Shown: piece by piece, positions 3 to 4,770 of the stretch
Layout of the letters: every line of letters starts with the position of its first letter
Numbering within the stretch: position 1 is the first letter of the stretch
Assembly: GCA_000697055.1 (NCBI GenBank)
Contig: JNDT01001554.1
Coordinates: forward strand, 1 to 64,000
DNA from: Saksenaea vasiformis B4078
Taxonomy: Eukaryota; Mucoromycota; Mucoromycetes; Mucorales; Saksenaeaceae
Direction of reading: 5' to 3'
Length of the DNA: 64,000 nt
Translations under genes and position numbers: made by a program
Notes under the pieces: generated by a model
Databases searched by the model: none
Seen by the model: only the letters and a program-made list of their open reading frames with translations
What the model was told of the DNA's origin: nothing

Positions 3-1532
3 CATCGTCAGATTGAGCAGTCCGGTTCGAGCAACATCGCTCGTGAGAACTGTTTTCGCCCTGAATCATTTACATTTGTCCAACAACAGAAGGTTTTCTC
101 TTTGGTGCCACAGTACGGTTTCAAGCGTCAATATGCCAGTATCGATATCCAAACCCTTCGACAATTGCTTCGTCAAAGTGGCGTTCAGTTACTACATAGT
201 GGGGCTCGCCAACAGACACAAGAGCAACATAAGCAAGATACACGACAATTCGCAGCAGTCTTTGACTTCAACAAAATTCGATGCAGAAGGTAGTTAATAT
301 CTGGACCAAGATCATTTACTAATAAGCTCTTTAGTCTCTTAGAGGGCCTTGATTTGGATGAACCTCGAGAAATGTTCACAAACCTCGTAAGAACAGACGG
401 CTATGCAATCGACTTTGTATTTGCTCGCAGAACAACAGAGGAACAAGACTTACCAGACCTAGACGCCACAGACTTTGATGAATGGGAGCTTAATAACGTA
501 TTCGACTTATGGGGAGCTGACCCGGGGATGACGGAGATTTATGTAGCCAGTAATGGTCATAGAACAGAACCTCCTGAAATTCGAAAGATGTCCACAGCAG
601 AGTTTTATGTCATGGTCGGGTACAAGAAGACGAATGCGAATATCCTGCGAATGAAGCGCGAAACCGAAATGCTTGCAGTAGAACAGGAAATCACAACGCG
701 GAAGACAGCAAACCCAGAGACAATGGCAACGTACCTCGAATCACTATTGCCAAATCTGGAGCAGCTATTTGACTTCTATGATGAAAGGCTTGCAAGTCTC
801 CGATTCTTGAACTATATTAGCAAGCAGCGGGCTGAGGCTGAACTTATCAACATACTGCTTGATGGTGGCAAAAAATATAATCTACGCGGTCTGAAACAGA
901 AACGGAAGACCTGGAGAAAGAAGAAGCAACAAAAGTATGTGCCTTTCAAATTGTAATATGAGCTTGACTAACTTTTTTATTTTATCTTCACGTATAGGAA
1001 ACGGACAAGAGAGAAGAAGTATGGCAATTACACTTGTTGGCAGCGCTGTTAATTCTCTTTGGTTGATAGGCGTCCACGATCACAGAAACAGAAATGGCGA
1101 AAGGCACCACTACGGCCAATGCCAGACAGGATCCCTTTGGTTGCATTCGGGAATGCCACATTCCAAACGAACATGCGCGGCAAGATCTCTGGACTGGCTG
1201 ACCGCTGTCGAGTTCTCCTGAAAAAGGCAGAAAATGCCGGTTTACTTGTTATGGTCAATGTGGACGAGTACAACACGTCAAAAGGTAATATTGACAAACA
1301 CATGGAGACACTCCATATTAACGAGGATACTTAGGTGTGATCCAGATGTCAGCAGAAGAACATGGAAAACTTACGACTGAACGAAGAAGCGTACGGAACG
1401 CTGCATAGCGTGCTCGGTTGCCAAACCTGTGGCACGTTATGGCAACGCGATGTCAACGCCAGCAGAAACATACACAAGCTTGCAACATGCTCGGCACTTG
1501 GTCAAGGCCGACCATTGGTGTTTCAACGCTGA
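3..1532 (+). pseudogene. Fanzor (eukaryotic TnpB-like RNA-guided nuclease) relic
   Basis: The conceptual product matches the Fanzor/TnpB layout. A basic N-terminal part (3-293) is followed by a RuvC-I motif with D-P-G-M-T (Asp codon 519-521), a middle segment V-A-F-G-N-A-T-F around 1140-1160, V-D-E-Y-N-T-S-K before a zinc finger (about 1258-1280), a second C-x-x-C at 1419-1430 and the RuvC-III motif R-D-V-N-A-S-R-N-I with Asp at 1449-1451. Candidate introns are near 293-340, at about 949-997 (GTATGTG...TATAG), and at 1286-1334. The copy is broken: an in-frame TAA at 1050-1052, a TGA at 1338-1340 exactly where the first zinc-finger Cys is expected, and a splice frame at 1286/1334 that is one base off. 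The 5' end is outside the window. Known of the family: Fanzors cut DNA guided by an RNA encoded at their 3' end and ride on transposons. Inference: this copy is inactive. The family call rests on motif order and is fairly firm. Confidence 0.82.
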
Positions 1533-1870
1533 TCATATCTCGCTGTAACAAAAACAGTAGATGCTTACAGGTAAGCCTCTTTTTTATCGAGTATTTTATT
1601 GACAATTTTTTTGTCAGGTGATTGTACAATATACTCATACAATCGCATAGGAATCTTCGTTGCTATGGCATTTGTCTCTCAAGGAATGGCAAGGTTGATA
1701 GAACGAGGTTTATGAGCCAGATTATATAATAAAAGATTTTTTTTGACAGTTGTCTTCATACTTCTAATGAAACACTGCATCTTTTCTCTTTTCAGTTAGG
1801 CAACGCTATCTCCTACCAAGACAATGATGGGAGATATACTGCATAAGATAGTTTTTTTTATGATATTTGA
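1533..1870. other. Spacer between Fanzor relic and first transposase
   Basis: No gene is seen. The stretch is AT-rich with several T-runs and contains an inverted repeat TATCTCC (1807-1813) / GGAGATA (1830-1836) that could form a 7-bp hairpin. In the Fanzor family the guide RNA usually lies at or just beyond the 3' end of the coding region, so this is where a relic guide RNA would be sought. The sequence alone does not prove one. Confidence 0.4.
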
Positions 1871-3423: not shown

Positions 3424-4770
3424 CTACTTCAAACCGATCTCTTTTTGCAGGCACCGATCCCAATAAGTCTCAGCATGTCTTATCCAACCTTGACAATCGG
3501 CTGTAGTGACAGTCTTGCACGCCTCAGCAATACGTGGTGTGAGCATATCAGCTTTGTCGAGCGGGTTTCTTCTAATATTCTTCTTGATCTTGGACCAGCA
3601 TTCTTCGATGGGATTTTTTAACGGTGAGTATGGCGGCATAAACAAAGGTTTATATCCACGCTTGTTGATGACATCCACGACAAAGCGAGAGTGATGGATT
3701 CTGCAATTATCCATCACAATAAACATATTCTTCATATTATGTTTATCCAGGATGTCCATCACCGTCTCCATAAACCGGACAATATGATAAGCTGTAGTAC
3801 CTTTCTTAAGTTTTACTGCTTTTGCATCGGTTTGAGCACTAATCTTTCTCTTCTTGGAAGCAGCCGGCTCAGGAAACTCCTCCTCGATCTTGGCTGCATC
3901 ACTCTTCTTTAACGGCTCCACCTTCGAGAAGCAGACCCTCCCAAAGGGGGAGATACAACCCACAATGCTGATATGTACGCCCTTCTGGGTGCGTACTTTC
4001 ACGATAGCAGGATCCCCAACCCTTGACCATGCACGGCCTCTCATCAACTGTGAATGGAAGCTTGCTTCATCAACAAACACACAATTCTTTTGAAAATTGA
4101 CACCGGCAGCTCTCCATTGACTGATGATGTCGAACCGGAGCTCAATAGTTCTTGGGGCATCGCAGGCCAAAGTGTACTTAGATGCTTGCTTCAACGAGAT
4201 CGAGCACTTCTCCCAAATATGCTTATAAAGGCCAGGAATGGATATTTCAAGGCCTTCAAAACGCTCACAGAGCTTCTGTTTTGCTTCCACAAGAACGATT
4301 GATGGATTATCATCAAATAGCTTAATCAAAAAAGCTGAATGTTCAGGAAACACGCTTTTTTGGCTCACGCTTAAGCTGCTTCTTTACGCTTCCAGGAAGA
4401 ACTGTTCCAGAACCTGCGTTGAACTCGTCTAGCAACTTGTAAGAAGTACTACGAGGTATACCACATTGCTCTGCTGCTTTCGGTACTGAGTCCTGTTTCT
4501 TGAACTAAACTAATGAAGCGCGCAATCTGCTCCTCGCCGTACTTCTTTTATTTTTTCCGTGTTGTAATGGCAACTTCCTTGAATTCCTCAATAAGGTCGT
4601 CTATTGCTTCGTCCATTGCAACCGGCTGTGTCTCAGGTTCAGGAACAGCGTCGAATTCGACGAGCATCTCAATTTGACCATACTCGATGGCGGAATCATC
4701 GAAGTCCATCTCATCTGAGCTCTCATCGTAGGCTAAGAGGGAATTCTCAACAGGTTGTAGTGAATGAAGT
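3424..4770 (-). pseudogene. Tc1/mariner transposase of element B: catalytic domain open, N-terminus broken
   Basis: The 314-residue open stretch (3424-4368) carries the complete DDE domain: FVDEASF (first Asp), VMDNCRIHH (second Asp) and PPYSPLKNPIEECW (Glu), with 34 residues between the second Asp and Glu (DD34E). Upstream the same strand encodes an acidic leader (DESSDEMDFDD) and the N-terminal helix-turn-helix (GEEQIARFISLVQETGLS; SVPKAAEQCGIPRSTSYK). That part is broken by a TAA near 4547, a frameshift near 4480 and a second frameshift near 4375. The DNA-binding domain is therefore not continuous with the catalytic domain. Introns could explain one break but I see no good splice sites for all of them. 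Inference: the copy cannot mobilise itself, although its ends look intact enough to be moved by a related transposase. Confidence 0.85.

Follow-up and report, generated by a model that had tools for sequence, protein, structure and literature searches.

A decayed Fanzor1 gene with the right end of its Tc1/mariner-type element in the mould Saksenaea vasiformis, and a one-sided flank signature in its element family

In Spizellomyces punctatus, the bases CA lie upstream of the left repeat of the elements carrying the Fanzor SpuFz1, in Fanzor loci as well as in ghost loci, and the measured TAM of SpuFz1 is CATA (PMC10432273, in the portions available). The same portions state that the role of Fanzors for their transposons is a question that needs better host genetic tools to answer. 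A fingerprint of Fanzor proteins, namely a DPG motif and a glutamate six residues ahead of the zinc finger, is described in the available text of PMC10711439. Here we describe a related locus in a mould genome assembled as 666 contigs (38.7 Mb). The window analyzed is the first 64 kb (64,000 nucleotides) of contig 269, from base 1. Positions 1-1626 of the window hold the 3' portion of a Fanzor1 gene together with the right end of its transposon, and the left part of the gene is absent because the contig begins at base 1.

The gene is read on the plus strand as an open frame in split pieces across bases 3-1532, and its introns and lesions were determined by aligning the window with 13 other copies. 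The first exon piece (3-289), at which the contig start cuts off the gene's 5' part, is supported by its open frame, its similarity to the copies and the conserved junction of intron 1 (290-334), where GT..AG is conserved in all eight of the 13 aligned copies that cover it. The alignment also defines an exon with RuvC-I (335-934; aspartate of D-P-G at 519-521) and a short basic exon (998-1018), separated by intron 2 (935-997), with GT..AG in all 11 of the 13 copies covering it. Intron 3 (1019-1069) has GT..AG in 10 of the 11 covering copies among the 13, and L018 has AT for GT. The exon with RuvC-II (1070-1284; glutamate of V-D-E-Y at 1266-1268) is followed by intron 4 (1285-1334), again with GT..AG in all 11 of 13 copies covering it, and by the last exon (1335-1532), which holds the zinc finger, the RuvC-III aspartate (1449-1451) and the stop codon (1530-1532). 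The preliminary description had placed the feature at 3-1532, which holds for the coding part; the feature as a whole extends to 1626, where similarity to the other copies ends, and its 5' part is cut by the contig start.

The alignment of copies also shows that the apparent stops near 291, 954, 1050 and 1332 fall inside the four introns. We therefore rejected the stops as a mark of heavy decay, the majority of them being intronic. Inactivation by two in-frame stops had been proposed earlier; the inactivation stands, and the lesions turn out to be one stop and one frameshift, since the TAG at 1332-1334 closes intron 4. Both lesions are found in the window only: a one-base insertion in the A run at 1280-1283, and a TGA at 1338-1340 in place of the first zinc-finger cysteine. 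At the latter position the codon is TGC in ten copies and TGT in one, and all 11 of the 13 copies covering the region are without either lesion. The missing first cysteine, which leaves the C4 zinc finger incomplete, marks decay of the window copy and not another family. The three catalytic residues are all present in the window. Because the TGA stands where the copies have cysteine, a selenocysteine codon was considered, and it was rejected: the 11 covering copies have a cysteine codon there, and the window frame is shifted just upstream.

We also considered that the window copy is in fact undecayed, its extra base and TGA having arisen through misassembly of a repeat at a contig end. The gene does lie at the very start of its contig, and several other copies likewise lie at contig ends; however, other copies have lesions of their own of the same kind, as expected of an ageing repeat family, and we regard assembly error as improbable. 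A piece of the same Fanzor family with a right end lies at the other end of contig 269 (L051; 79645-79982, minus strand), and with Fanzor pieces at both ends the contig seems to be broken in this repeat on either side. The majority of the other copies are broken in differing ways. The copy on contig 455 is naturally open across the whole aligned part, with in-frame deletions. A search for further genomic copies, as had been suggested, yielded many relatives, the close ones with a common 3' end, but none shown intact from start codon to stop codon. A candidate unbroken relative is found on contig 419 (minus strand, around 64464-64676), where a zinc-ribbon match falls within a single open frame of 772 codons.

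The original identification as a Fanzor was based on four motifs, D-P-G-M-T, V-D-E-Y-N-T-S-K, C-x-x-C and R-D-V-N-A-S-R-N-I, and all four are present in the order named. Pfam PF07282 (Cas12f1-like_TNB) matches 1341-1532 on its own at 2.7e-5 (24.7 bits, slightly below the cut-off of 26.3). The profile search that had been proposed as a check was run on the contig-455 product, which matches PF07282 at 1e-11, above the cut-off, and NCBIfam guided_TnpB at 2.1e-7 with 30.6 bits, well short of the family cut-off of 100. The RuvC-I aspartate lies in the DPG motif (519-527), the RuvC-II glutamate (Ealt) lies six residues before the zinc finger (V-D-E-Y-N-T-S-K-V-C in the copies, with its codon present in the window), and the RuvC-III aspartate lies in R-D-V-N-A-S-R-N. 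The spacing from DPG to the glutamate is 208, which exceeds the search pattern for TnpB-like proteins given in the available text of PMC10711439 and falls inside the D-X(125,275) range given in that of PMC3627910.

No Pfam family covers most of the protein, and the contig-455 product as a single sequence found nothing better than 0.25 among solved structures, as would be the case if the protein were unrelated to Fanzors and carried a zinc ribbon by chance. Against this, the motifs keep their order, the TNB domain scores above cut-off in the contig-455 copy, and profiles reach the Fanzor structures. With a profile of 14 relatives the best solved structure is SpuFz1 (1.4e-12), and GtFz1 is also matched (2.5e-6); when two canonical-looking Fanzors and one fragment are removed, leaving 11, SpuFz1 still ranks first (3.7e-6) and GtFz1 is lost. 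We give the chance-resemblance reading a negligible probability. The three named protein relatives belong to Radiomyces, Thamnidium and Benjaminiella, all of them Mucorales, consistent with a mucoralean-type mould. Its sequence identifies the region as a decayed member of the Fanzor1 group, which supports the initial proposal, and RNA-guided DNA cleavage by living members of the family would be expected by analogy.

We next examined the element that carries the gene. Similarity among copies ends at window position 1626, after ...TTTTTGTCAGGTGATTGTA, and the right terminal inverted repeat, its outer TA (1625-1626) included, occupies 1608-1626 on the minus strand, as indicated by repeat-pattern matches and the end of similarity. 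In the genome the repeat pattern is matched 51 times and the reversed pattern twice. Inverted repeats of the CAGTCAC(A/C)TGACAAAAA type are found at both ends of seven copies, which define elements of about 4.1-6.8 kb, and TA lies outside both ends in all seven, TA having been part of the search pattern. A search for an empty site with the joined flanks of one of the seven elements found only that element's own two flanks; for this reason, and because TA was in the pattern, the TA duplication is regarded as putative. L046 has kept a Tc1-type HTH domain (HTH_Tnp_Tc3_2 at 5.6e-19) with most of a Tc1-like transposase and has lost most of its Fanzor, and transposase remnants are also found in other copies; the downstream (DDE) piece of the L046 transposase has no Pfam transposase match. 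Both ends are kept, with most of the Fanzor absent, in L044 and L045. From its ends and the HTH domain, the element is of the Tc1/mariner type, with a putative TA duplication.

The family is abundant. The Fanzor exon query gave at least 155 genome matches (150 of 317 candidates scored), and because these are exon-level matches one locus can count twice among them; the zinc-ribbon family gave at least 137 (150 of 388 candidates scored). Several other stretches were observed in or near these elements. Two DDE_3 transposase pieces lie just past the Fanzor remnant in the window, at 1871-2542 and 3424-4383 on the minus strand (Pfam 4e-25 and 1.8e-23). The N-terminal part in L046 (4918-5277) contains a stretch resembling a ubiquitin-interacting motif, which we do not claim as such, its Pfam value of 0.019 being below the cut-off. 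The N-terminal part in L037 (2576-2902) has no Pfam match, and a knuckle-like C-x-x-C...H...C stretch can be read in the DNA of L043 and L037.

A script assigned the outer flanks of the repeat ends in the retrieved loci to 19 left ends, 37 right ends and five others; 13 further left-end candidates were left uncounted because the end is truncated or diverged. The results show that AG precedes the terminal TA at 18 of the 19 left ends, at four of the 37 right ends and at none of the five others. Position -2 is A at every one of the 19 left ends, and one left end (L062) has TT instead of TA. Against a background in which AG precedes 451 of the 7062 TA sites on both strands of the window, AG is enriched at left ends (binomial P = 5.6e-21) and the right ends give P = 0.21; left and right ends differ at 5.9e-10 (Fisher). 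The right ends carry a milder bias, with T at -2 in 22 of 37, and TGTA precedes the flank in 35 of 36 copies, the remaining one (L052) having AGTA. A second Fanzor family (L023, L025, L027 and L030), with a protein 40-45% identical to that of the window and with different, TATGGTGCA-like repeats, has CT before TA at six of the seven left ends that could be placed, and AT at one. These come from 11 left-end matches, nine of which were examined and two of those nine were too diverged to place. CT precedes TA at none of its eight right ends. We report the left-only AG, and the left-only CT of the second family, as new.

The left-only pairs mirror the CA upstream of the left end and the CATA TAM of SpuFz1, and by this analogy we predict the TAMs AGTA for the window's family and CTTA for the second family. 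Neither TAM was found in the article listings searched on Fanzors or in the portions of papers available. The relic might instead be that of a dead Fanzor whose left AG came from the transposase or the element, through an asymmetric target preference or as two bases of the left end itself. The two families differ in their inverted repeats as well as in the left pair, so the pair could follow the transposase; the empty-site search, tried on one element, found no such site, and the Fanzor-free Tc1 families L091-L098, intended as a control for the left-only pair, gave ends that did not resolve. On the other hand, AG is common to two subfamilies of family A with different left ends, being found at 13 of 13 left ends of the window's own family and at five of six L037-like ends, the sixth of which has AC. 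Moreover, Tc1/mariner ends are near-symmetric and their TA target is without polarity, so a one-sided pair would be unexpected from the transposase. SpuFz1 also has the same arrangement together with a measured TAM (PMC10432273, portions available). We consider an origin of AG in the transposase or element unlikely, though deserving of attention, and prefer the reading in which AG relates to the Fanzor TAM.

The region between the stop codon and the element end (1533-1626, plus strand) is a candidate omega-RNA region, given its position after the stop, its similarity among subfamilies and the covariation among the close ones. A hairpin, GCUGU-AACAAAA-ACAGU, follows the stop codon closely, at 1542-1558. 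Across ten distinct rows from close subfamilies, 90% of cells pair and two pairs change on both sides; the covariation score of 0.489 compares with a shuffle mean of 0.273 and was reached by none of 500 shuffles. Of the five hairpin measures, two (both-side changes and further pair types) are no higher than in the shuffles. Loops of the same kind stand on other stems in L014 (UACGU/ACGUA), the second family (AUCGU/ACGAU) and L099 (CUCAU/AUGAG). Such a stem with a 7-base loop is not unusual in shuffles of single sequences (for example 131 of 500 for L016, 121 of 500 for L014), folding energies are unremarkable (z from -1.60 to 0.40), and RNAalifold on the 23-row right-end alignment yields no more than a 3-pair stem lacking covariation. 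The right ends of L083, L084 and L086 lack the hairpin in that register. Among 20 more distant loci, L099 has the hairpin and L109 a short version, and the remaining ones have another hairpin, none, or an unrecognisable stop codon. Rfam has no match in the window. We regard the hairpin as a candidate omega RNA, and the host flank immediately beyond the element (1627-1647, plus strand), which is unrelated between copies, as the predicted guide stretch of the window copy, a role assigned from published Fanzors. A stretch like TTAC(A)GGTAAG recurs past the stop codon in several Fanzor subfamilies; possible readings of it are an RNA-binding core, a hairpin and a resemblance to a splice donor. The conserved CAGGTAAG of the right end was considered as a splice donor or U1 site and rejected, since its GT is lost in several loci, for example L010, L011, L052, L053 and L084.

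Taken as a whole, we consider it probable that the region combines the 3' portion of a dead Fanzor1 gene with a Tc1/mariner-type right end, in a family that would be retained by Fanzor guidance with the TAM AGTA. The transposase would move the element between TA sites, and the Fanzor would be guided by an RNA transcribed from the right end and on into the adjoining host sequence. The Fanzor would recognise an unoccupied site by its TAM and then the guide and cut it, and repair of the cut from the occupied copy would restore the element. The AG before TA at left ends only may be a trace of the TAM AGTA, and occupied sites would mostly be spared from cutting, their right ends almost always presenting TGTA before the flank. 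A broader proposal, which we advance tentatively and with the balance tilted slightly against it, is that the Fanzor and not the transposase decides which TA insertions persist: insertions would survive only with two Fanzor-specific bases before TA, TAMs would take the form NN plus TA (CA-TA in SpuFz1, AG-TA and CT-TA in the present families), and the pair found at left ends only would preserve, across a eukaryotic genome, a fossil trace of Fanzor activity. The classical excision scar of Tc1 is TA-CAG-TA. AGTA equals the end of this scar, and scars could therefore be re-cut by the Fanzor; the CTTA of the second family does not fit this idea. With more than 100 Fanzor remnants, some with both element ends, insertion sites serve as evidence on the role of Fanzors, and a one-sided bias that differs in two families yields TAM predictions testable in vitro. 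Left-end flanks are suggested as a way to read the TAMs of other Fanzor families, and of the present findings the one-sided flank signature most merits further work.

Finally, we compared the locus with known systems, as described in the available portions of the respective articles. Bao and Jurka (PMC3627910) report Fanzor1 in the related moulds Mucor, Rhizopus and Phycomyces, with 10, 4 and 3 families, and Fanzor1 inside Mariner elements flanked by TA, as here; the mould Fanzor1 of that work are assigned to MuDr or left unclassified, unlike the Tc1/mariner-type element here, and no flank signature for the mould families was found in the available text. PpFz1 of Parasitella parasitica (PMC11423790) is likewise a Fanzor1 from a mould, linked there with Mucorales, and differs from the locus here in its TAM, ATN, and in a cyclophilin-binding insertion in RuvC; it is absent from the chains matched by the two profiles and is likened by description only. 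The Spu-1 elements of SpuFz1 (PMC10432273, PMC3627910) have CA where AG or CT is found here, measure about 2.1 kb compared to about 4.1-6.8 kb in the two-ended copies, and carry one open frame and no transposase, in contrast to a gene with introns and, in one copy, a Tc1-type transposase remnant; their RNA and TAM have been measured, and both are predicted here. As in our elements, the Fanzor1 of Spu-1 sits in a small element bounded by inverted repeats and putative TA duplications; Spu-1 also has two additional conserved bases upstream at the left end alone, has an RNA region between the stop codon and the right end (a candidate only here), and includes shortened copies that retain both ends.
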